Origin: Phoenix dactylifera
Lineage: Eukaryota > Streptophyta > Magnoliopsida > Arecales > Arecaceae
Reading direction: 5' to 3'
DNA: 64,000 bases
NCBI RefSeq assembly: GCF_009389715.1
Contig: NC_052395.1
Span: forward strand, 3,534,001-3,598,000
Shown: positions 5,064 through 63,962 of the stretch, in pieces
Numbering within the stretch: position 1 is the first letter of the stretch
How the letters are laid out: each line of letters opens with the position of its first letter
The notes under the pieces: generated by a model
Told to the model about the DNA's origin: nothing
Database searches by the model: none
What the model saw: only the letters and a program-made list of their open reading frames with translations
Program-made: the position numbers and the translations under genes

Positions 5064-7122
5064 ATGATGAAAGGGTTGGGAATTCAGCAGCACCAAGTGT
5101 TGGAGGAGATTATGTCCAACCTCACTTCTGCCTCTGGTGAAGCCAGTGTCTCTTCAAACCAGCAGTCTTCTTTTGCCTCTACTACCCCAAATCCAGTCAA
5201 GAAAAAGAGGAGCCTTCCAGGAAACCCAGGTCTCATATAAGCCAAATGAACTGAATGAGATTTATTTCTCTTTTATGTTATTTCTCTCAATTATTCATTG
5301 GTATTATGCTTCTTTTTAAGTAATATTATTGGGCTTTGGTGTTTAGACCCGGATGCTGAAGTGATAGCACTGTCCCCCAAGACACTGATGACAACAAATA
5401 GGTTTGTGTGTGAGATCTGCAACAAAGGCTTCCAGAGGGACCAGAACCTCCAGCTCCACAGAAGGGGTCATAACCTTCCATGGAAGCTGAAGCAAAGAAC
5501 CAACAAGGAGGTGAGGAAGAAGGTGTACATCTGCCCAGAGGTCACATGTGTGCACCATGATGCCTCCAGGGCTCTTGGGGACCTCACTGGGATCAAGAAG
5601 CACTTCTGCAGGAAGCATGGGGAGAAGAGGTGGAAATGTGACAAGTGCTCCAAGAAATATGCTGTTCAATCTGATTGGAAAGCCCACAACAAGATCTGTG
5701 GCACAAGGGAATATAGATGTAACTGTGGAACCCTCTTCTCAAGGTAACACCACCAACCCTAAAGCCTAACTAAAATAAGAAGCTGAAAGCAATTAAATAA
5801 GGTCACAAGCAGTTCGGTTTTCTTTATTAAGAGTGCCTCAAGACCATTAAGCATTAAATTTTAGCCACCACCGAGGAGGATCCATCCAAACCTTTCAATC
5901 TTCTTCTTTTTTTTTTTTTTTTTGAGGGAACTGGGAGGAGAGTACCTTCTCTACCTATTGAGTTATAATCATGGAGCTAGCTATAAGAAAAAGGAAGATG
6001 GAATAAGGGTGAGTGAGAAGGGAACACAGTTGGAGAACAGCTAAATATACTTATGGACAAAGAAAGAAATCATGAGAATGAAGCCTACTTTATTCATTTC
6101 TGGCCCCTTTTTCCTTTGCTTCTGTCTGGAGTTTAGCAAACTTTTTAGAATTGTATCTCCATCTTTGTGATGTTTTTTCTCTCTCTCTTTAGCTTTTTAT
6201 TTTGGTTGCTTATGCTGCTTGCGGTCGCAGAAGGGACAGCTTTATCACCCACAGAGCCTTTTGTGATGCATTGGCTGAAGAAAGTGCAAGAGCCATCACA
6301 GCGAAACCTATGGCTAATCACCATCCACTGCCATGCTCTCAGCCCACAGCACCCCATGACCTCTCTACTCCATATACCAGCATACACCAAGCCCAGTTCC
6401 CTCACCTGATGAGAACTGCAGAGGCCAGCACCAGCACTGCAAGCAGCCAGGGTCTCCAAGAGCTCTCACTAAAAGGAGAGCACCAGCAGCAGGACTTCGG
6501 GATCAGGCGCGAAATCCCACCGTGGGTAGCCTGTCAAGGCCCTGGCCCACCTCCTGACCTCCCTCCCTCTATTTACTCACCAAGGTTGGGACCTGAGTTC
6601 AGAAATGAGAACCAACCCCCTCACCCACAGCTATACCAATCCTCGGCAGCCACCCCTCACCTGTCAGCCACTGCACTGCTTCAGAAGGCAGCTCAGATGG
6701 GCGCAACCATGAGTAGAACCCCTCACACTGGTCAGATCAGTGCCCCTCGTTTTGGCCTCGGCTTGCCATCGCACAAAGAGATGTGTGGGGGTGGAGGTGG
6801 TGCTCTTGTGCTCGAAGATATGATGATGGCTTCTATGCCATCAGCTCCTGGTCTTGGTGGATGGTCTTTTGAAGGAGCTTTGGGTGGAATGCTGGAATCG
6901 AAGAGAGAGGGGAACGGTGTTGAGGGCCTCTTAAGAAGCCATGGAAGGAATGAAGGAGGGGGAGGTGGCGGTGGTGGTGCAAGTGATGGAATGACAAGAG
7001 ACTTCCTGGGTCTTCGGGCCTTCTCCCATGGGGAGATTCTCAGCATGGCTGGGCTGGACCCCTGCATGGCCTCCTCTTCATACGAGCAGCCCCCGCAGAA
7101 CAAGGAACCATGGCATGGGTAG
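5064..7122 (+). CDS. INDETERMINATE-DOMAIN (IDD/BIRD) C2H2 zinc-finger transcription factor
   Basis: Three exons, 5064-5229, 5347-5743 and 6231-7122, join in frame with GT-AG introns to 484 aa. The first of two adjacent ATGs is used; it is followed by a basic KKKR stretch (residues 46-49), a likely nuclear localisation signal, and then the family's DPDAEVIALSPKTL lead-in. The ID domain has four fingers. ZF1 has C77/C80/H93/H97, ZF2 C118/C123/H141/H146, ZF3 C153/C156/H169/C173 and ZF4 C180/C182/H195/C199, giving the family's C2H2, C2H2, C2HC, C2HC pattern. The last intron splits ZF4, as is typical. C-terminal IDD motifs are present: a SATALLQKAAQMGAT segment, a glycine run and TRDFLGLR near the end. 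Known IDDs act in the nucleus in development, gibberellin response, shoot gravitropism or sugar metabolism. The subgroup cannot be assigned here; the C-terminal motifs resemble IDD4/5/7-type proteins. The gene appears intact. Confidence 0.95.
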
Positions 7123-11692: not shown

Positions 11693-11810
11693 AGGGTGCA
11701 ACACGAGAACTTCCCAAGGGGTCACCCATTCTAGTACACTCTCGCTCAAGTACGCTTAACTGCAGAGTTTTATGGAATCTGGTACATTAGTGCTGGTATG
11801 ATCGCACTCC
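11693..11810 (-). pseudogene. 5S rRNA-like sequence
   Basis: On the minus strand this 118-bp stretch follows the plant 5S rRNA along its whole length: it starts like GGGTGCGATCATACC, passes the AGCACTAATG and GTTAAGCG segments, has the GGGTGACC region near the 3' end, and finishes GTGTTGCACCC. It carries several substitutions and a small deletion in the GAGTAGTACTAGG region, so it is not a normal genomic 5S gene. A run of five T follows the 3' end on that strand, which could terminate RNA polymerase III. Sequences related to the A-box and C-box are still visible. It may come from a 5S gene, or from a 5S-containing retroelement such as Cassandra. Confidence 0.8.
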
Positions 11811-34063: not shown

Positions 34064-37000
34064 TTAAGTGTACTTGTTCATCATTTGTGATGCTAATATA
34101 TACCTTCCCAGCATCATGACAGTTGCCTGAGGGTTAGTCCCAGGCGAGTTCACAAATGTCGAGCCGTCGATCACTCGCAGGCCGGCGATGCCAAGAACTC
34201 GGTAGTCACGGTCGACTACCTTCCCCACATGGCATCCGCCATGGTAGTGCCAGATTGTGATCACTGTATCCCTGCAGAACTGCTCGAGCGATGCAGTATC
34301 ATTGGTGTGTTTGGGAATCAAGTTCACATTTGCCTTCACGCTTATATTCAGCAACCTTTCCATGGAGTAGAAGTGGTCGTCGGAAAGGTTAGCAAATTGC
34401 CTCGTCTGCACAATTTTCCCGATCATCCTGATCCCGTAGACGCAGCGTTGGAGGTCGTACGGGTGGCTGAAGTAGTTGAAGGTGACGGATGGGTTGTTGT
34501 CGGCGTTCGTGTCGGCGAGGTTGAGTTCGCCGGTGGAGAGCGGGCCGTCAATTTTCTCGAGTATGAAGCCCCCTTGGAAGGCCTCCCGGGGCAGGCTCCC
34601 TTTGCTCCTAGAATACTCCCTGGCCGCCTCCAGGCTTCGTTTCTTCGGAGGGATGGTGGAGAGTTGCCCAATCTGCTGCGGTTTTAAGGTTAAACTGCTG
34701 GTTAGTTTGCAGGAAAGTTGGAAGGAAAAGGATAGCAAGAGATGGATGAAGCAACTTGTGGATGACGTCGGACCTCAGCAGACATGATTCCATGGTGGCA
34801 GCGAATGCTGTCTGATGACTGGCCGAAGCCGCTGCTGGCCTCAATGAACGAACCAATCTTCGTGATCCCTACGGTCTGTATCAGGGACTGCTCCACAGGC
34901 TTCTTGGTGGGTATGAAGATTGAGTTCATGGGGTTGTCCGACATGCCTTTTCCGACATGCCGATTGTCAAACACCGCTGAAATGTTTAGCTTCATGAGAT
35001 CTTCCTTGGGTCCAATTCCACTAAGAAGCAGCAGTTGAGGGCTGCCAAGTGCACCAGAAGACAATAGAATTTCACTGCGCTCCTCGCCATTAAGGACTGC
35101 TTGGTGCTGCAAGCCGTTCTCATCCTTGAAGAGGACTCCCACTGCCTTGGGCTGCTGCCCTGTTCGTTAATTTCATGTTAGAGGATATCCTACGTTTAAT
35201 TTAAAGTAACTGCTGCTTCAGAGAAGATATATAGTTGGGAGACGGCCCTCAGGCCTCTCTCTATACCTTGCGTATCGAAGATAATCTTCTGAGCAGTGGC
35301 ATGAAGCAAGACTTTGAGATTCCGTCGGTTTCCGGCGGCGAGCAGATCGGCAGCGGTGCGTCGGAAGCCATTCTTGTTGAAGATGGTGCCGCCAACCTTG
35401 GTCCCATACAAATGGTCGAAGGTGTATCCATTGAATGGTGACACACCAGCTTCTAGCAGCCCGTTCCTCAGTGCGGTTTGCCATGGTGCGATCTTGGGCC
35501 AGTGGACGATCCTCTTTTCGATCCATGGATATGACTCGTTCACCAGCTCACCATCCCAACCTGCTGCCCTCACATAGCTGTAGAGCCGTATAAAAGCTCA
35601 CCTACTTAGTTTCTTTCTCTAGCTTTCTGAACAAGTGGAAGTTACTAACCTCTCGGAGCATTGAAAGCTAAGGGAAGCAAAGCAACAGAACCAGCTGGAT
35701 TCATTGAGACGTAAAAAGATTCAACTTTCAAAGAAGTAGCGCAAAGGCATGATGCTAGGTCGAGAAGTGAAAAAAGAGAACTCGAGGTTGGTGGGAAGGG
35801 GAGAGGACAATTTGGATCTTGCCGTTCTGGTTCTGCAGCTCAGAAAGGGATTTGTGAGGCCAGCGTCAGCTAGTTTAATTTGTTGCTGAAAATGCTGTGG
35901 ACTCCGTAAAAATAGAATCGAGTGCATGGGCGTAGAAGTACCAGAAGTTTAAAGCTAGGTTGGAAGGAAGAAGCCAGGACATCAAGCCCAACCACCAACA
36001 CTACAACAGTAATGGTATCAGTTTCATTACTTTCATTAGGGGACTGGAAAAAGATGACAGAAAGAGATAACGTGGTCGTTCTCTAAACGGAACGGGCTGG
36101 CCATTTTCCCCATTTAGTGGGATCCTAATAGTCATCAGATGACAAATTTAATAAAAATCAATAACTAGAGAAACAATATCATGCATTCAACATCGATGTG
36201 CATCTCTTTTTCACAATAAATAAAAAGCTAAACATCACTTTCCACTACTACATATACTGCTATATCTTATTGAAGGAAAAACATTCTACGATGTTGTGAA
36301 TATCTATTCCACATCAATTGATTTGTAGAGGTTATTCTTTTTTTGAAACTAGGCTTTAATTATTATCCGTTTCTTATCAAAACCATGAAAGGCCGACAAA
36401 GGAGCTCGAGTTGTTCCAAACCAAAACTATGAGGTTTTCAATGACACGGATTAAAGAAGCTTATCTGAACCTTCGAGGCTTATCGTTTTTGAATTCTTTT
36501 TTTTACAATGAGATGGTTTTTTTTTGCTTCAACTCAGATTTTAACCTAAAACATCTTACCTGAAGAGAGAGATGCCAACTAATTAAACTACCAACTTGGT
36601 TGAATGAAACTTTGTTTGTAATTAGAGATGGCAACAAATCAGGTATCTAAACCCATACTGGGTATAGATCGGTCAAATAAAGCTGCAGTTTTTTTTTAAC
36701 ATACAAATTTTATTTTTTTTTGTCTTAGGAAGAAGATTCATGAAAAGTTATATATATCCAGATCCGATTCAAGATGGATTTTACTCTTACCATATCCGCT
36801 CTAGATTCATTGTAGGTTGGGGCGGGCTGAATAAATCGCGCCCCAAGGTGGTGATGGTCATATTGGAGTCGTTATGTTTGCTTTGTTTTCATTCTCTTTA
36901 CGAATTATGAAGGGAAGCCATCTTTCACTTCAAAAAAAGCTGAGTTACCATCTATTGGCATATTATTCTTGCATTCAAACATGGTGAAGAGATTAAGGAG

Positions 37001-47890: not shown

Positions 47891-50800
47891 ACTTAAGATG
47901 CCAAACAGAGTAGTAGCACTGCATAAATTAATATTTTGAAGGCAGAGATACAAGAAAAAAGCAGAGCCATCAGATAGAGATACAATCTTTGATAGCTCAG
48001 CTTGATCAAATTATATCTTTGTTGCATCAGTTTGTCCCTTCTCAGGTAAATAACTACATCTACTTAAACATTTTACATAAGTATCATGTTTTTTTTAATG
48101 AGCTTAATGATTTTCATATTCTTAATTTCTAAAATTTTTTTTTATAGGTTCCTGATACTTCATCTGTGTGTAGAGATGATGATGCCATCGACCCCTGATA
48201 GCTTTTATTTAGGAGTTTTATATGTATATTTTTTATATTTTTTGAAGTACATTACAAACGTAAATTGACAATATGAATGTAATTTGATAATATGAATATT
48301 TTAAAAATATGTTTGATTGTGACATGTGTATATCGCTTTTGTTATGTATGTGTTTGGATTTGTATACAAAGTTTTTAAAAAAATTTAAAATTTTTTTAAA
48401 AAAAATTACCCTAACAATGCTTTAAAGCATTGTTAAAATCACGATTACGATCCAATTAGCGACATTTTAAAGCGTCGCTACATTGTAATTAACGACGCTT
48501 TAAGCTGTTGCTAAATCGCCACAATTAGTGAGGCTTTAAGGCATCGCTACGTTGTCGCTAATTGGCGACGCAATAAAGCATTGCTAATTGCCGACGCTAA
48601 TGTTCGTCGCTAATTTTCGATGCTTAAAGGCGTCACTAATTTCTGATGCTTAAAAATGTCGCTAATTTTCGATGCTTAAAAGCGTTGCTAATTTTCGATG
48701 CTTTTTAAAAGCGTCGGAAATTATTTTTTCACTCTTACATAGCGACGCTTTGCCGATGCTTTAGAAAGCGTAGGAAAGCTTTTTACCAATGCTTATAAGC
48801 GTCAGTAAAGATCTTAAAAAGCATTGTTAATGCCCCTTTTTCTTGTAGTAATAGTTGGCGTCACCTCAGCTAAGCAAGCTTGGGATGCTTTCTCTTGTCG
48901 CTTTGCCTCCTTTGGTCCTTCTCATATCATGACTATGAAACAACAGCTTCATCACATTAAAAAGGGATCATTCTCTATGCAAGATTATCTCCAGCAATTC
49001 AAAGTTCTTTCCGATAAGTTAGCTGCATGTGGATCACCAGTAAGTGATGATGATTTGCTCATGATCTACATCCTAGATGGACTTCCTCCTTCTTATCGCA
49101 CATTCTCTTCTTCAATTCGAGTTTGTGCTCGCATCTATCCTCTTTCTCTTGAAGAATTCCAAACCTTATTAATTTGTGAGGAAATTAATCTTGTAGAAGA
49201 GGTCTCCATGCTACTGTATTTATTTCCTCAAGACCTACCAAAACATTCAATCTAGGTCATGGTTCTACTCACCATGGGAATAATCGGCATCATAACATTG
49301 GCCAATGTCCTAATCATTCTTCAAGTGATGGCATCCTCCCCTCTCCTAATGAGCCTTCTCATTTCTTTTGCTCACATAGTTGTTCTTCACAATCTACTCT
49401 CCCAACCTATCAAATCTGCAATAAGGTTGGGCATATTGTCATCAATTGCTATCATCATATAAACTATGCATATCAAGATCGCCATCCTTCAAAGAAACTT
49501 GCAGCTATGGTGATCGCTCGCTCGTTCACTAACGATAATACTTGGTATTCTGACACTAGTGCTACTCTCCATATCACTGCCGACCTCGACAAGTTATATG
49601 TCTCATCAAAATATAGTAGTTCTGACAGTGTCCAAGTTGGCAACGGACAAGTTTTGTCTATCTCTCATATTGGTTCATCTTCTATCACTAGCTATAAAAC
49701 TAAATTTTACTTATCTAATGTTCTTCATTGTCTAAAAGCCTCAACAAATCTCTTACTGTAAACCATTTATCTCAGGACAATGACTGTTATTTCTTATTTG
49801 ATGAATCTGGCTTTGTTGTCAAGAACAAGGATACAGGAGTGATATTGTACTGCAGGATGACTGAGAATGGACTTTATCCTTTCCATTTCCTAGCAAAAGA
49901 TGCACATGATCACTCACCAACAGCCTATGTGAGTCGTCACATCTCCACAGATCTCTGCCATCGTCATCTCGGCTATCCATCTCATGATATTCATCCTATG
50001 TTTTATCCTCTCTTTCAATTTCAAATAAACTTGCCGTTACAAATCAGTTTTTTCTGATATTTTTGTCTCATTTAAATCACAAGCTGAAAACTTGTTTAAT
50101 ACTAAAATTAAAAATTTTCATTTCGATGGGGGTGGTGAATTCAAAAGCAATACTCTTAAATATTTTTTGTCTTTACATGGCATAATGCACCAATTTTTTT
50201 GCCCCCATACTCCAGAACAAAATTGTGTTATCAAAAGAAAACATCGTCACATTGTTAAAACCGGACTTATACTTGCTCATGCATCTCTTCCTCCAAAAGT
50301 TTGGTTAGAAGGATTTTCTACTACAATATATTTAATAAATTGAATGCCTATTGTTTCTCATCACAAAATTTCACCATATGAAAAACTTTTTCAAACATAT
50401 CCAGACTATTCCCATTTACGAGCTTTCAATTGCTTATATTTTTCTTGTCTTCGACCATACAAGTCCAATAAACTAAAATATCGATCCACTAAGTGTTGTT
50501 TCTTAGAATATAGCATTGTTCACAAAGGGTATAGAAAAATATATATATCACGTTTTGTCACCTTTGATGAACATATCTTTCTCTATTTCAACCATATCAC
50601 ATCTCAATCAGCCTCTCATAATCCTACTTCTGCTCTTGACTCGCTTTCAATGTGGTTACCTCAGCTTCCTACTCCTACCGACACTACTACTCATAACTAT
50701 ACATTCTCAAATTATTTTACAGGTACAGTATGTCAATCTTAGGATTCTTTCATGGCAACAACATTCAATTCAACCACTACACCACATGACAACACAAGCA

Positions 50801-51890
50801 TCCCAATTGAACCCTTTCTACCACCTCAACATAAGATCACCTCTCACCTTCCCTCCTCCGAATCTCCACCACTACCACTACCACCAGCCCCCATCACCAA
50901 ACTTTTCTCCCATACCAACCAACCACCCAGCCCACTACAACGCACCCATCCCATGACCACTTAATCTTAATCGGGTATATCCAAGTGCAAAATACTATAC
51001 TATACTCGCCACCCTCTCCTAACTGCTCTTACTATATTCTATTCTATTCTATTCTATTGAACCAACATGTTATATACAAGCCTCAAAAAGTCCAAAGTAG
51101 AGACATGATATGGATCTCAAATTTACATCTCTTTAGAATCAACAAACTTGGACTCTTCTTCCTTTTCGGCTTAACATGAACGTTGTTGGTTGCAAGTAGG
51201 TGATTCAAATTAAACGCAACCCAAATAGATCCATCAACAAATACAAAGCTCACTTGGTTGCCAAGGGCTTTCACCAACAACCTAGAGTTGATTTTTTTGA
51301 GACATTTAGTCCCATTGTTAAGCATGCTATAATTAGAATTATTCTCACAATAGCTTTGACTCATAATTGGCCACTCCATCAACTGGACATAGAATGTGCC
51401 TTTTTACATGGTAACTTTCAAGATATGGTATTTATGTCTCAACCTCCTGGTTATATTGATCCATCAAAATCCACTCATGTTTGTCATATATGCAAATCAA
51501 TTTATGGACTCCGGCAAGCTCCTCATGCTTGGTATGAAAATTTTGGCTCAAAATTTTTGGAGTTGGAATTTGTTATTTCGCAATCAAATCCTTCAATATT
51601 TATATATCATCATGGTAGCATTACATTATATCTTCTCCTTTATATTGATGATATCATTCTCACTGACAATAATAACATTTCTCTTCGCAAGCTCATTATT
51701 GAACTTACTAATTCATTTAAGATGAAGGATATGGGCTCCTTGTCATATTCTTAGCATTCAAGTGGATCGGTCAACTGATGGAATTTTTCTACATCAATCC
51801 AAATACATCTTAGACTTGTTACAACACACCAACATGCTTGAATGCAAACCATGTTCAAGTCCTTGCTCTATTGAAAAGCTGGGCTACATG

Positions 51891-56607: not shown

Positions 56608-59600
56608 CTAATCACCATTCTCCAAACCTGTGCCAACTTTCCTACGCTCGCTTGCACTTCCTGATGACAAGCCTCTCGCTCTATGCCAAGATTGCCAGCT
56701 TCTACTTGTTCTAAGAGGGCCCGACCTTGAATACCTCCGGAAAGATCCAGAAACATCCCTTGTAAACCTCGCTGAAGTACTGAATATATCGGATGCTGAT
56801 ATCACCCTCTCCAGCTCCAGATCCAACACTGTACTGATCCTTTCTTCTGTATCCTGTGTAGATATCTCCTCCTGGCTGAAGCTTCCTGATCCTCTATATT
56901 CATTGCCCTCATTGCAGACCAATTTTAAGGCTTGAACTACCTCGCCCATAAATGGACGCTGATCTACTTCAGGCTGAACGCACATTGAAGCAATGGCTGC
57001 TACCTTTGCGACTCTATCAAATGGAATGGTGCCAAGAGATGGATCTACGATAGTCTCCAATCCATCCTTACTAGTAAGAAGTGGACGAGCCCATGTCACT
57101 AAATTTTCTTGCCCTGGAGGTCGCAGCATGTCCACTGGCTTCCTTCCTGTTAGGAGCTCGAGGAGGACAACACCATAGCTGTAAACATCGCTCTTGACAA
57201 GGAGATGCCCCGTCATTGCATATTCTGGAGCTACATAACTTTAAAAAAAAAAAAAAGAGCACATTTTTTTATCATTTACAGCATCACATTGAGTTATAAG
57301 CAAAAAGATAATAATTATAGTTTAGAGTTATATACCCGAAAGTTCCCATGACGCGTGTTGAAATGTGCCCATTTCCCTCATCTAGAGCTGTTCTGGCCAG
57401 GCCAAAATCAGACACTTTGGGAGTGAGGTCGTCTTCCAACAAGATGTTGCTGGCTTTGAAATCACGATGTATGACACGAGGGCTTGAATCTTCATGCAGA
57501 TATGCTAGACCTCGAGCAGCACCAAGCGCAATCTTCAGCCTGGCATTCCAATCAAGTGGAGCACTTTGCTTGTCTGCTCCTGTGTAGAAAACACAGTTCA
57601 AATCATTTCTTAAAAGCAGCTTGAAATTAATACAAGGAACATAATTAAAACAGCATGATGCAACTAATGTATAAATTTTCATCAACCTAAGCCTGAACTA
57701 GTAAACTCTGTACCGGCAAAAAGGCCGAAGATTAAGCCACAAAGCAAACTTTATGATGTTTAAACAACTCAAGAGACTGAGTAACTGGAAGCATTTAGAC
57801 AGTGACGTAGTCAACAATGGAGTTGCTGGTCGAAATAAATGTGCATTATGGATGGTATTTCATGAATTGACTGAATTGTTAAGCAAAAATATGCAGAGCC
57901 AAGTAACGTTCAGGGACTAGTACCAGTACTTACCATAAAGATGAGATTCCACGCTACCATTTGGAACAAGTTCATAGACCAGACAGCGGATATGCTCCTC
58001 TGTGCATATACCAATCAACTTTACCAAGTTTCTGTGATGCAAGCGGCTCAGCATCTCAACCTCGGCCAAGAATTCTCGGCTACCCTGCTGATCATCTCTC
58101 TTGAGCACCTTGATGGCCACTCTTCTTGTATCTTCAAGAGTACCTTCATACACGCGTCCGAAACCACCTTCACCAATAATTCTTGAATCATTAAATTTGC
58201 TTGTAGCTCTTTCCATCTCAGCTAGGCTGAATGTTTTTGCTGATCCTGCACATGTTGCAATGCTAGAGTTGAAGGATGCTGAGGCAGAACCGGGCCTACT
58301 TCCAGGTCTTGTAGGTACACCCCCTGCAACTTTTTTGACACATCAAAAAGGAGATATTACACTATAAAAATTACACATTGGGGGGAAAAATCTTCTAATT
58401 CCTCAAAAAGGAGTTCTTAAAGGATCAAACCAAGGTTCACAATATCAGTTTCAGTACCCGTACTGGCACCATATTGGTATAGTGTTGGATGGGTTGGTTT
58501 GGTGGTCCTCTAGGTACACCACCCATATAGAGTACCATTTTGGTACAGGTATGGTACAGTTTGCCCCATACGGGATGGTAGACACTGGTATGGTGAACCT
58601 TAAAACAAGCAAAACAAGAGTTCCTCCCCCTACTTCAAATGTGAGCTATGCAAACTTCTCTCATATTATCAAACAACACATGAAAGGCTAAGTTTTATTG
58701 TTTGAAAGAAGAAAAAAAAGTGCACCTACAGATTTGTCCTTTCCAACGGCAACCATGGTCTATACTAGATGCTAAAAATGAATTTATGCTTTTCACATTA
58801 ATCAAAGGTGCTTTTAGAAACTCCTTTTATTAACATGAGCGAGACCATTTTTCTGAATCTGGGGATACACCAGGAGCCGTATAAATATTCCATGTTGAAC
58901 TTTTTATTCTATTATTACCAGTTATCAAGTTGCTAAAGTTTGTACATACAAAATAAACTGGATTAGTAAGTGGAACATAATAATGACTAGAACAATGTTA
59001 TTTAGATTTGAAGATGTGTCAGTTTATTATGGTCCTTCCTAATAAATTCTGAAAAAATCACAATCAGACAAATATAATAGGAATACCTGATGCCTTTGAA
59101 AATGGAGGTAGTGACATCTGTGGGGTTATTATTGGCAAATGAGAAAGTTCTCTATGTTTCAACAAGAAAACCCATGCCGCTCCAGCACATAATACCAATG
59201 CTATAACAGCTGAAAGAACTATGATAGCTATCACAGTGCCATTTTGTTTTTGCTTTTGCTTTCTGACATCAGCTGCAAGAGGATGTATCGTCCTATTATT
59301 GTCATTACCATAAGCCCCATTATCACTTCCAGGTGCCATAGGTGGTGATGGAGGAAGCCCTGCATATATAATATTTTTAAAAAAAATCAAGACAAATCGA
59401 GCAAGACAGGAGTCAAAGTGTGCACTACCAGAAACAAACTTTCAACAGAATATCAATATGATTTCTCTCCATGCATCATGTAAGTAATGGATGCTTTGAA
59501 CTCTTAAACTTCCATTTAACTGGCCATGTCCATGACATTTCATTAGCCAAAACATCATATCAATGAGAGATCCTAAACCTCCATGCTTTTCCAATTCATC

Positions 59601-62600
59601 AACAAAACAGCATGTTACCTTTTCTGTATTCTAAATAAAAGGGTACCATAGCAAGGGATCCACACCTAATCACAGTACGGATCAGCAATATATCTGTTCA
59701 AGACTTCTTCTATCAAATGCAAACTCCGAAATGCCTCAGTTTGTGAGGCTCTAGGTCAAGGTTTGCCATCTCAATACTGGACCATGCCGGTACAATGTTG
59801 GTATACTTGGTATATAGGGGTTGGTTCAGCGTACTAGACTAGTTGGTTCAGCGTACTAGACTAGTTGGTTCAGCGTACACGCCGGTATGAGGCCATACGT
59901 GCCGGTATGAGGACATATGGCGTATCAATAAAACAAACCTTGCTCCAGGTCATTCTTCTTAACATCTCTCACTCTCAATACTGTAACTGATCCCATCATA
60001 AATAAAAAAAACTCCACCTAGTTTAGTTCATGTTTTGAGAGAGAGAAGCAAACCTTTTCAATGGTGGGAGTTTATTTTTCAAAATAACATTAATAAATTC
60101 GGGAATCATAACCATCCATACTACCTCTGACATCCATCACACATGCCACACTCCAAAGTGCCTCATTGTCTGAAAGACACCAATTCATGAGGCTCCACCA
60201 CCCCATAGCTATTACTATATCAGACATATAAACCTTGTGTAGTTCGATTCTTGCCCTTACAAGAGAAGCGTGCCTTGCAAAACTAGGAGTTTATATATCG
60301 AAATATATGATAATAACATATGCTTAATCATGCCTCTTACATGCATCACACATGCCAAGGATGTTATAAGAATAACACATTCTTAGATCCTATCTTTTTT
60401 TAAGATGCTAACAGTCAGTATTTTGGGCCAGTTAGTGGATGGTTCAAATCACCCATCAAAAACAATAATGGAAGAAATAAGGGGCTACTCCATCTTACAC
60501 TATGCACTTTGCATGGGCAACATAAAAAATGCATTGACTAACATGAGGAATATCACTGAAACAATTATTCTAACCTGGATAGATAACATATAATACATCA
60601 TAATCCCCAAAAAATGAGGGGTTTATGAAAACCTGCTTGTCCCAGAACTTCTCATAGACTGAAAATGCTGTAGTGCTATCGAATTTGCCTCCGAGAGGCA
60701 CCAGGTCAATGAGCACAATAGTTTTGTCATATTCCTCAGTCGTAGCATTTGCTCCCATGATGCGGACCTGACTTTGTTTCATGAAAACCCCAGATGCAAT
60801 TTCTTGGGCAAGCTCAGAGACTAAAGGGAAGAATGTGAATAGTGCAATGCTTAGACGAAGTCCAACTCTTATCGGCATCACACAAGCACATGATGATCCT
60901 GGAGGGCTACTTGTAAAAGGCTCTGGGCAAGATAACGGGGTTGTACAGTCTGCAGACAAACCAAATAAATAGTGATTGTAATTGTATATTCAGCTAGACT
61001 TGGAGAATCTTAGAACAATGCAATGGGAATATCACAGAATTTGACAACAACATATTGATAAAATAATGATACTCCATACCTACCTTGATTAGGTGGTGGA
61101 GGTGGTAATGAATGGAAAGGTTGAAGTTGTGATGCCCTTGGCTTTCCAGAGGCAGACGCAGAAGGAGAAAGTACAGGAGATTGAATAGGCCCTGTAGGAA
61201 TGAGCACAATCAAAAACCAATGACGACTAGTATTATGAAAAAGGAGAAACATGTGTCAGAACAAGAGTGACAATTAAAAGCACTTAAATACACGTTTATT
61301 TTGGGTAGATGGGAACATTAGTGATGGGGAAGGCGTAGGGTTCCTTCATTACCTGCTGAATGAAAAGGAACTTGGGAAACTGAAGGGCCTGAAGAAAAAG
61401 AAAGCGGGTCAAGAGTTAAAGAAATAATATACCTGTATAATCTATATGTTATTTAATAAGGTTCCAACCTTGAAGATAAGGTGGTGGAGCATGATGCTCT
61501 CGACTATGCTTTGGGAGTACTGTTGGAGAATGTGAAGGAGCTGGAGAAAACACCTGCCTCTTATTAAAACTCAATGAGGGGTCAATGTAACATTTTCAGG
61601 TATATTATTCCAACCTGGATTACGGGATTGTGGAGAAGGAGCAGATGCAGGGCTTCCAGTTCTTTGCCTAGCCGTTGGCTGGTGAAATGAAACTACAGGT
61701 GCTGGTGCAGGGCTGTGAAATATTCTTTGTACTGGAGGTTGGGGATGTGAAGCGAAAGGAGAATGTACTGGATATGAGGGTCTACCAGACTCATGTGGAG
61801 CAGGGCTTATAACAGGAAAAGAGCCTGTAGAATAGATTAGACATTGGATTAGTATTTCTAATTTCTCATTCAAGCATTCGAACATTTTTCATGGAGGATA
61901 TAAGTACCTTTTGTGTGCGAATAATTTTTGGGGGATAAAGGACTGGATATATCTTTTGGTGGTGCAGGAACTGGCATGCTATATCTCCCATAGTTGGCAG
62001 GAGGTGTGGCGGGTGCTGGAGAAACTGCACATCATATGTTGCCATAAATGCACGATAAGCACATAAAGATCAGTCACGGAATTAGTATGTTTATCATTTC
62101 AACATTCTTCACTAAGAAGAGTACTTTTTGGATGTGCATGCTTTATAGGGGATGAATGTCTAGGCGGTGGAGGTGGTAATGAATGGAAAGGTTGAAGCTG
62201 TGGTGCTCGTGGCTTTCCTGAGGCAGATGTCGAAGGAGAAAGTACAGGAGATTGAACAGGCCCTGTAGGAATGAGCATGATCAAAAACCAATAACAAGTA
62301 GTATTATAAGGAAGGAGAAACATGTATTAGAATAAGAGTAGCAATTAGATGCACTTTAGTGGAAATTTATTTTGAGTAGATGGTAACATTATTGATGGGG
62401 AAGGTGTAAGTCTATATGTTATTTAGTAAGGTTACAACCTTGAATATAGGGTAGTGGAGCATGATGCTCTCGATTATGCTTTGGGAGTACTGCTGGAGGA
62501 TTTGAAGAAGCTGGAAAAAACACCTGCCTGTTATTAAAACTCAATGAGGGGTCAATATAATATTTTCAAGTATATTATTCCTACCTGGATTACGGGATTG

Positions 62601-63962
62601 TGGAGGAGCAGATGAAGGGCTTCCGGTTCTTTGCCTACCTATCGGCTGGCGAAATGAAACTACAGGTGCTGGTGCAGGGCTGCGAAATATTCTTTGTATT
62701 GGAGGTTGGGGATGTGAAGCGAAAGGAGAATGTACTGAATATGAGGGTCTACCAGCCTCATGTGGAGCAGGGCTTATAACAGGAAAAGAGCCTGTAGAAA
62801 AGAATAGACATTGGATTAGTGTTTATAATTTCCCATTCAAACATTTTTCATGGAGAATATAAGTACCTTTTGTGTGCGAATAATTTTTGGGGATTAAAGG
62901 ACTGGATATATCTTTTGGTGGTGCAGGAACTGGCATGCCATATCTCCCATAGTTGGCAGGAGGTGTCGCGGGTGCTGGAGAAACAGCAGGCTCTGCACAT
63001 CATATGTTGCCATAAATGCACTATAAGCACATAAAGATCAGTCACGGAATTGGTATGTTTATCATTTCAACATTTGTCACTAAGAAGAATACTTTTTGGA
63101 TGTGCATGGTTTTTAGGGGATGAATGTCTAGGCGGTGGAGGTGGTAATGAATGGAAAGGTTGAAGTTGTGGTGCCCGTGGCTTTCCTGAGGTAGATGCCA
63201 AAGGAGAAAGTACAGGAGATTGGACAGGCCCTGTAGGAATGAGCATGATCAAAAACCAATAACAAGTAGTATTATAAGAAAGGAGAAACATGTATTAGAA
63301 TAAGAGTAGCAATCAGATGCACTTAAGTATAAATTTATTTTGAGTAGATGGGTACATTATTGACAGGAAAGGTGTTAGTCTATATGTTATTTAATAAGGT
63401 TACAACCTTGGATATAGGGTAGTGGAGCATGATGCTCTCTATTATGCTTTGGGAGTACTGCTGGAGGATTTGAAGAAGCTGGAAAAAACACCTGTCTCTT
63501 ATTAAAACTCAATGAGGGATCAATATAACATTTTCAGGTATATTATTCCAACCTGGATTACGGGATTGTGGAGAAGGAGCAGATGCAGGGCTTCCGGTTC
63601 TTTGCCTAGTTGTCAGCTGGCGAAATGAAACTACAGGTGCTGGTGCAGTGCTGTGAAATATTCTTTGCACTGGAGGTTGGGGATGTGAAGCGAAAGGAGA
63701 ATCTATTGAATATGAGGGTCTACCAGCCTCATGTGGAGCAGGGCTTATAACAGGAAAAGAGCCTGTAGAAAAGATTAGACATTGGATTAGTATTTATAAC
63801 TTCTCATTCAAACATTTTCATGGAGGATATAAGTACCATTTTTGTGCGAATAATTTTGGGGGGATAAAGGGCTGGATATATCTTTTGGCGGTACAGGAAC
63901 TGGCATGCCATATCTCCCATAGTTAGCAGGAGGTGTGGTGGGTGCTGGAGAAACAGCAGGCC
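56608..63962 (-). CDS. ALE2-like receptor-like kinase (5' end beyond window), amplified proline-rich ectodomain
   Basis: Eighteen in-frame exons are visible: 63837-63962, 63553-63762, 63407-63478, 63093-63230, 62867-62992, 62585-62791, 62439-62510, 62125-62262, 61908-62024, 61615-61824, 61469-61540, 61353-61388, 61084-61191, 60575-60949, 59087-59359, 57934-58323, 57336-57579 and 56608-57238. They encode about 1181 residues plus stop; the start codon is outside. The order is Pro/Ser-rich repeats, a Cys-containing juxtamembrane ectodomain ([11 protein letters not shown]), a transmembrane helix ([21 protein letters not shown]), then a kinase with [34 protein letters not shown] and APEY, all catalytic residues present. 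The C-tail ends ENGD. Arabidopsis ALE2 (about 740 aa) acts at the epidermal plasma membrane with ACR4 in protoderm and cuticle formation. Odd: the ectodomain cassette is repeated (separate entry). Exons upstream of the Cys ectodomain are phase 1-1. Two donors in the repeat are weak (AAAAA|GTA). Confidence 0.9.
58431..58605. mobile_element. Foldback GGTAC-rich element in an ALE2 intron
   Basis: AAGGTTCAC at 58432 and GTGAACCTT near 58600 form inverted termini around about 170 bp rich in GGTAC/GGTATGG motifs. It is small and non-coding, and of the same general type as the elements at 21.0, 24.3 and 59.8 kb. No target duplication is evident. Confidence 0.5.
59757..59941. mobile_element. Foldback GCCGGTA-rich element in an ALE2 intron with internal 22-bp tandem repeats
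   Basis: The ends CAAGGTTTG and CAAACCTTG are perfect inverted complements. The interior contains ccggtacaatgttggta motifs and three tandem copies of a roughly 22-bp block (ttggttcagcgtactagac) at about 59820-59880. Non-coding. Confidence 0.55.
61084..63962 (-). repeat. Tandem multi-exon cassette (about 970 bp, three copies) in the ALE2-like gene
   Basis: Exons and introns repeat together. In gene order each unit has an exon of 117-126 bp ([14 protein letters not shown] type), one of 207-210 bp ([10 protein letters not shown] type), one of 72 bp ([11 protein letters not shown] type) and one of 108-138 bp (QSPVLSPS...SLPPPPP type). The 72-bp exons start at 63478, 62510 and 61540, and the 207-210-bp exons at 63762, 62791 and 61824, giving spacings of 968-971 bp. 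All exons are symmetric phase 1, so unit number can change without shifting the frame. The two upstream units are most alike; the downstream one lacks nine bases in its first exon, has a shorter last exon and carries an extra 36-bp exon. The array continues to the window edge. Confidence 0.9.

Follow-up and report, generated by a model that had tools for sequence, protein, structure and literature searches.

Nested tandem duplication of phase-1 exons as the probable origin of a long proline-rich ectodomain in an ALE2-type receptor-like kinase gene of Phoenix dactylifera

The stretch of DNA that has been analysed here, referred to as the window, comprises 64,000 nucleotides of the Phoenix dactylifera genome (contig NC_052395.1, positions 3,534,001 to 3,598,000); we refer to the contig that holds the window as C4 (C4:3534001-3598000), and to other contigs of the same genome as C11, C8, C191 and C17. 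The end of the window carries, on the minus strand, a gene that is predicted from its encoded domains (ALE2_N, i.e. PF23180, and a kinase) to be an ALE2-type receptor-like kinase. Within this gene, at window positions 61084-63962, an exon cassette, D-C-B-A, is present in three tandem copies, and we propose, with a probability of about three in four, that nested tandem duplication of symmetric phase-1 exons has enlarged the ectodomain-coding part of the gene. An amplified exon cassette in an ALE2-like receptor gene had been claimed in an earlier note on this DNA; the comparisons below uphold that claim, and lead to a different view of its age and of the part of the protein that it extends.

The three-unit exon cassette array

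In the direction of transcription, the exons of the array follow each other in the order D3 C3 B3 A3 - D2 C2 B2 A2 - D1 C1 B1 m1 A1, from position 63962, where exon D of unit 3 starts, to position 61084, where exon A of unit 1 ends; these are exactly the limits that had been proposed. Splice-site dissection has shown that all 13 exons are of phase 1-1, are flanked by an AG acceptor and a GT donor, and have lengths that are divisible by three. The exons of units 1, 2 and 3 add up to 543, 543 and 546 nt, respectively, i.e. 181, 181 and 182 codons, in agreement with the approximately 182 residues per unit that had been expected. Three copies of four phase-1 exons had been described and are indeed present, except that unit 1 contains a fifth exon (m, 36 nt), located inside a 101-column stretch that is missing from units 2 and 3.

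Four direct-repeat families recur through the array at spacings of 970/968, 1071/968, 967/971 and 959/970 bp; an interval of 968-971 bp had been stated, while seven of the eight spacings fall within 959-971 bp and the remaining one is 1071 bp, because the 101-column stretch with the mini exon occurs only in unit 1. Compared with the window, unit 1 matches the other units piecewise at 86-91% (with E = 0.0 in the case of the larger pieces and at most 1.7e-70 in that of the smaller ones), and the three-copy repeat is far beyond chance. The cassettes were missed by Tandem Repeats Finder, the longest period of which is 500.

All features of the array lie on the minus strand. In unit 3, exon D (126 nt) is located at 63837..63962, exon C (210 nt) at 63553..63762, exon B (72 nt) at 63407..63478 and exon A (138 nt) at 63093..63230. 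In unit 2, exon D (126 nt), which trees and derived sites identify as the sister of exon D of unit 1, is located at 62867..62992, followed by exon C (207 nt) at 62585..62791, exon B (72 nt) at 62439..62510 and exon A (138 nt) at 62125..62262; this last exon is a fusion exon, shared with unit 3, which is discussed in the next section. In unit 1, exon D (117 nt, 61908..62024) is shorter than in the other units by 9 bp, in frame, and is followed by exon C (210 nt, 61615..61824), exon B (72 nt, 61469..61540), the mini exon m (61353..61388) and exon A (108 nt, 61084..61191), which is the last exon of the array before the ALE2_N exon. An earlier CAG was considered as the start of exon B and was rejected, as it gives the wrong phase; the acceptor CTCCAG/TTCCAG gives phase 1.

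The introns of the array are 74-176 nt long. Those of units 2 and 3 had been called near-identical, which overstates their likeness: they differ at 28 of 424 sites (6.6%; 93.4% identity), next to 33 of 543 exon sites (6.1%). Across all units, the exons diverge by 6-9% and the introns by 7-13% overall, with a maximum of 17.6% in the B-A intron, and private indels are present; the exons contain two small indels among units, of 9 and 3 bp, both multiples of three.

The gene, its paralogues and the origin of the cassette

The window alone covers only part of the gene, and 19 kb of sequence beyond its edge have also been read. When the exons of the window and of the flanking contig are concatenated, a model of 28 exons forms a single frame of 1632 codons with no stop; its 27 introns are all GT-AG, 26 of them being of phase 1 and one of phase 2, so whole-exon duplications leave the downstream frame intact. 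The model excludes exon d5, which is frameshifted, and a weak candidate exon, e7. Its 5' part consists of the signal-peptide exon (C4:3603833-3603911), e11, e10, e9, e8, d6, d4, d3, d2 and d1, followed by the array; exons d1-d6 and the 5' exons are located upstream of unit 3, outside the window, and span C4:3598066-3603911.

Downstream of the array, also on the minus strand, the model contains the ALE2_N exon (60575..60949), the transmembrane-segment exon (59087..59359), kinase exon 1 (57934..58323), kinase exon 2 (57336..57579) and a last exon that contains the kinase C-lobe, the tail and the stop (56608..57238). PF23180 is matched by the ALE2_N exon alone with E = 1.3e-46, and by the spliced model with E = 4.9e-56 (188.5 bits against a curated cut-off of 27; residues 1005-1123, profile positions 2-120 of 120). 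Two overlapping Pfam models place the kinase at residues 1256-1527 (PF07714, E = 2.6e-49; PF00069, E = 6e-44), and the catalytic motifs VAIK, HRD and DFG make it active-looking. Hydropathy peaks at residues 8-34 and 1158-1190 fit a signal peptide and one transmembrane segment, with an additional hydropathy window at residues 1018-1036, within ALE2_N, barely exceeding the threshold. As had been claimed, the kinase is untouched by the amplification, its exons being located outside the array. A perfect tandem repeat of 22 bp (2.7 copies, window positions 59820-59878) is located in the intron between the ALE2_N and the transmembrane exons.

The array had been expected to continue past the end of the window, the final 38 bp of which do match the intron that lies upstream of exon D (at 34 of 38 and 35 of 38 sites), but no fourth cassette is present in the 19 kb beyond the edge, and none is reported among the matches listed in the DNA search of the plant's own genome. 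Upstream of D3, there is instead a second repeat with a spacing of approximately 240 bp and one D-type exon per copy, d1-d6. The gene thus contains nine D-type exons (D1-D3 and d1-d6), eight of them with an intact frame. Exon d2 contains an exact in-frame tandem repeat of 39 bp (2.0 copies, 100% identical, C4:3598390-3598467), each copy of which has its own AG, so that there are two candidate in-frame acceptors at a distance of 39 bp, and hence a possible alternative 3' splice site.

The two repeats are linked through exon A. Comparison with A1 and d1 has revealed that exons A2 and A3 follow exon A1 up to CCTA and, from CTAGACAT onwards, run on as exon d1 does at its 3' end, the next intron matching the intron of d1; in unit 2, the junction is located at approximately position 62160, with CTA as microhomology. 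This switch shows that the first cassette duplication connected two exons at internal points, with the frame kept. Exon A1 retains the unfused, ancestral form, with a similar 3' end in C11 and C8.

The DNA search of the genome has returned, among the matches listed, at least this array and one paralogue. The paralogue, on C11, is collinear with C4, the BLAST matches, which also cover introns and upstream sequence, extending over approximately 16 kb of C4 and 12 kb of C11; it contains one cassette and two D-type exons. A working copy of the mini exon had been expected on C11, but the copy found there is decayed, though recognisable, i.e. it lacks a GT donor and has no open phase 1-1 form. The presence of this exon in unit 1 and its recognisable remnant on C11 indicate that it disappeared in the lineage leading to units 2 and 3. 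As a separate observation, the 5' exons of C11 look damaged when aligned to C4 (C11:2568400-2571000), a trend opposite to the expansion on C4 within the duplicate pair: e8 and e11 lack the GT donor that is used in C4 (e11 has another possible donor), e10 lacks an AG acceptor, and e9 and e10 contain gaps that are not divisible by three.

Searched exon-wise, ALE2_N occurs at 11 places of the genome, all over the cut-off and some evidently fragments of one gene, and at none in 14 control genomes. The third strong ALE2_N place, on C8, belongs to a more diverged paralogue, in which one exon each of D, C, B and A, open in phase 1-1, precedes ALE2_N in the same order; the signal-peptide exon and e11 have not been found on C8. 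In the 10-kb stretches beside the ALE2_N genes on C191 and C17, exons D, C and B have no match at E 0.01, and exon A has only weak ones. As judged from these paralogues, the ancestral plan is D-C-B-(m)-A-ALE2_N, with single copies as in C8.

In trees of the D-type exons, d6 and the upstream exon of C11 form a pair (support 100/100 and 100/99), and the D exon of C11 groups with D1-D3 (100/99 and 98/94), with d1-d5 outside this group; the deep branches of the exon-only tree are weak (74/86). These placements imply that the multiplication of D-type exons began before C4 and C11 parted; C11 either lost D copies afterwards or never possessed all of them.

Read in this way, the sequences point to the following course. 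From the ancestral order, D-type exons multiplied one at a time, giving rise to d1-d6 approximately 240 bp apart; a tandem duplication of several exons, with breakpoints midway through exons A and d1, connected the two at CTA, creating both the fusion exon and a cassette that could be repeated; the two cassettes subsequently underwent an unequal exchange, within or beside exon C, which produced the hybrid middle unit; and a repeat of 39 bp formed, in frame, within d2.

The middle unit and the age of the array

The exchange step is recorded in the mosaic relatedness of unit 2. A maximum chi-square test, which uses no outgroup, has placed a switch in relatedness at 61546..61557, downstream of which unit 1 is the outlier (maximum chi-square 18.5; 20,000 permutations, p = 0.0002). 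When C11 is used as the outgroup, the derived sites shared in the D region number four for units 1 and 2 and zero for the other pairs, while those shared in the B-A region number 19 for units 2 and 3, two for units 1 and 3, and one for units 1 and 2; the counts for units 1+2 and 2+3 differ between the D and B-A regions (Fisher test, p = 0.0005). Unit 2 is thus, on the pattern of its sites, a recombinant, whose D end derives from unit 1 and whose B-A end from unit 3, and a single unequal crossover between two misaligned cassettes yields exactly such a middle unit. The unequal crossing over that had been proposed for the array therefore finds its counterpart in unit 2.

The same comparisons bear on the possibility that one unit was duplicated during contig building, which had been named as a refuting outcome. 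Tandem arrays are error-prone in assemblies, but the units differ by the percentages given above and carry private indels, their history is consistent when polarised by the C11 paralogue, and the ends of the array differ in structure, with exon A being fused in two units and unfused only at the end; an assembly duplication is therefore very unlikely, to the point of being negligible.

The age of the array has been approached through C11, on the assumption, drawn from collinearity and Ks, that C4 and C11 are products of the palm genome duplication, and with linear scaling. Over the ALE2_N and kinase exons (545 codons), Ks between C4 and C11 is 0.265, varying from 0.18 to 0.38 by exon; the excerpts of PMC10787024 give a Ks peak of approximately 0.32 (approximately 75 million years) for the palm genome duplication and approximately 0.22 (approximately 65 million years) for the split between date palm and oil palm. 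In the B-A half, K is 0.157 between units 1 and 3 and 0.058 between units 2 and 3, next to 0.186-0.218 between the C4 units and C11; for the D exons of units 1 and 2, K is 0.035, against 0.22-0.27. Scaled with the dates in those excerpts, the first cassette duplication would have occurred roughly 54-63 million years ago and the hybrid unit would have formed roughly 10-23 million years ago, both values being based on few sites; conversion would make the true events older.

The crossing over had been called recent, which does not agree with the divergence of the units, whose K values lie between roughly one seventh and four fifths of the value for C4 against C11; the word can fit only the 39-bp repeat in d2. 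A young array, whose unit number differs between individuals, is accordingly improbable in our view: direct repeats of approximately 970 bp with exactly identical stretches of 44-70 bp can still misalign, and the repeat in d2 is 100% identical, but the divergence of the units corresponds to old events on the scale taken from the excerpts of PMC10787024, and no second allelic version occurs among the matches listed from the contigs of this genome, where haplotigs may lie outside the searched set.

The encoded arm, its constraint and its possible function

In the spliced model, the three cassettes correspond to residues 452-996 and the whole stretch from d6 to A1 corresponds to residues 221-996, while ALE2_N follows at residues 1005-1123. 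The cassettes are thus N-terminal to ALE2_N, and extra units extend the distal arm of the protein and not, as had been supposed, its stalk; exons other than those of the array encode the residues that separate ALE2_N from the membrane.

A Pfam search of the spliced model has found no domain in the array of repeated exons. The 776 residues from d6 to A1 contain 22.6% proline, 51.3% PAST, no cysteine and 75 [SAT]P pairs. In an arabinogalactan-like proline-rich region, PAST residues make up 50% or more and SP, AP or TP pairs are numerous; the 776-residue region has such a composition. The motifs SPPP and Tyr-X-Tyr are absent from the 1160-residue ectodomain, and Ser-Pro(3-5) is absent from the array and the 5' exons. 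An N-glycosylation sequon, NYS, occurs in all three units, and the net charge of each unit is positive (+9 to +16).

We infer that all units would be spliced in constitutively, forming a flexible, cysteine-free N-terminal arm of 776 residues beyond ALE2_N, rich in Pro, Ser and Ala and probably O-glycosylated, which may extend into the cell wall or bind to it; selection would act on the length and composition of this arm and not on its exact sequence. Between C4 and C11, Ka/Ks is 0.28 for the ALE2_N and kinase exons together and 0.43 for ALE2_N alone; among the units, it is 0.63-0.87, with bootstrap ranges (0.34-2.08) that include 1. The weak constraint would fit a flexible arm whose composition matters more than its sequence.

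Several observations weigh against growth by nested duplication into a functional arm. The Ka/Ks values of the units, just given, are one of them, and the transmembrane exon, located outside the array, is also loose (0.83). Exon d5 (approximately C4:3599053-3599180) contains a 1-nt deletion that creates an in-frame stop and leaves no open phase 1-1 form, although this deletion may be either real decay or a long-read error. With regard to the recombinant, the derived sites from the D-C intron to the C-B intron give no signal (three for units 1+2, two for 2+3 and one for 1+3), and K between units 1 and 3 is 0.065 in the D-C half, i.e. lower than in the B-A half, which calls for one or more additional exchanges or conversions. 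In neutral simulations at the observed 33-44 substitutions, moreover, 28-37% of units stay open, making the open frame of a single unit weak evidence; the case draws its strength from the joint model, from the paralogues on C8 and C11 and from the conservation of the splice sites.

For function, the serious alternative is neutral growth of a tolerant region: the units would be spliced in, but the added length would be functionless, the disordered arm simply tolerating insertions. This alternative, which differs from our interpretation in function only and which we hold to be somewhat less probable than even odds, agrees with the Ka/Ks of the units being indistinguishable from 1, with the nearly equal exon and intron divergence of units 2 and 3 (6.1% and 6.6%) and with the several damaged 5' exons of the C11 paralogue; it agrees less well with the retention of the NYS sequon in every unit, with the open phase 1-1 form of 18 of the 19 repeated exons (the 13 of the array and d1-d6) and with both small exon indels being multiples of three, a count of only two.

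A further, rather unlikely alternative is that the symmetric exons are alternatively spliced, so that the length of the ectodomain varies by tissue or transcript and not all units are used together. Any subset of the 13 phase 1-1 exons could be skipped in frame, d2 offers its two candidate acceptors, skipping would account for the toleration of the frameshift in d5, and the excerpts of PMC9013439 connect tandem exon duplication with alternative splicing; the introns of the array, on the other hand, appear ordinary.

Returning to growth by nested duplication, one extension of it, which is unlikely, is a length-adjustable receptor: phase-1 exons would act as a ratchet at three nested scales (the 39-bp repeat, the single D exon and the four-exon cassette), so that one palm ALE2 paralogue would keep gaining proline-rich segments, probably glycosylated and extending to the wall, as its sister loses exons; the copies would sense the wall at different distances, and their reach would be tuned by splicing or by copy number. 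Should the additional length have a function, these genes would offer a natural series in which to ask whether epidermal signalling is tuned by how far the proline-rich N-terminal arm of a receptor extends, and not by a folded binding domain. In Arabidopsis, ALE2 and ACR4 act together in specifying the epidermis, as stated in the excerpts of PMC7313013 and PMC10868138.

Elsewhere in the window, pieces of a GMC oxidoreductase gene are located at 34067-35142 on the minus strand (PF05199, E = 3.1e-29; PF00732, E = 1.6e-6); we take them to be HOTHEAD-like, of a family that presumably affects the epidermis too. An exon of a BIRD/IDD zinc-finger transcription factor occurs at 5298-5744 on the plus strand (PF22996, E = 4e-22), and pieces of a Copia-type retrotransposon at 48824-51751 on the plus strand (Retrotran_gag_2, E = 1.1e-16; RVT_2, E = 8.8e-48). 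The only gathering-level Rfam match in the window is a full-length 5S rRNA at 11693-11809 on the minus strand (83.7 bits).

Comparison with known systems

The gene resembles the ALE2 kinases (ALE2 is AT2G20300, ABNORMAL LEAF SHAPE 2) in possessing PF23180, a single strong hydrophobic segment before the kinase, and the HRD, DFG and VAIK motifs; it differs, in a comparison made with the C8 paralogue of the same genome, in the 776 repeated proline-rich residues that are located N-terminal to ALE2_N. In the C8 paralogue, the single D, C, B and A exons encode approximately 146-169 residues, depending on the choice of the C donor, compared with the 776 in C4.

With the extensin-type and PERK kinases, the gene shares a proline-rich ectodomain combined with a kinase, and the excerpt of a review table (PMC10868138) places ALE2 in the Extensin class; the absence of SPPP, of Tyr-X-Tyr and of repeated Ser-Pro(3-5) sets it apart from them.

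As a genetic process, the case belongs with tandem exon duplication: the exons are adjacent, homologous and of the same phase, and they have counterparts in single copy in the outgroup (one each in C8; one cassette, with two D-type exons, in C11). Among the papers listed in our searches, which included intragenic exon duplication in receptor-like kinases and tandem exon duplication in plants, there is no earlier report of this array. Nebulin contains multi-exon super-repeats of filament-binding modules. The animal examples OBSCN, NEB and dpy, described in the excerpts of PMC9013439, likewise have adjacent homologous exons that were copied within one gene; compared with nebulin, obscurin and Dumpy, the present gene encodes a plant receptor, its repeats are proline-rich and contain no Pfam domain, and its breakpoint lies inside exons, producing a fusion exon. 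Much of the course is visible in one genome, i.e. the single exons of C8, the one cassette of C11, the fusion breakpoint and the recombinant unit, so that intragenic exon amplification can be ordered and roughly dated; tandem exon duplication is an already known process, well described in animals, to which the date palm gene adds a plant case with readable steps.

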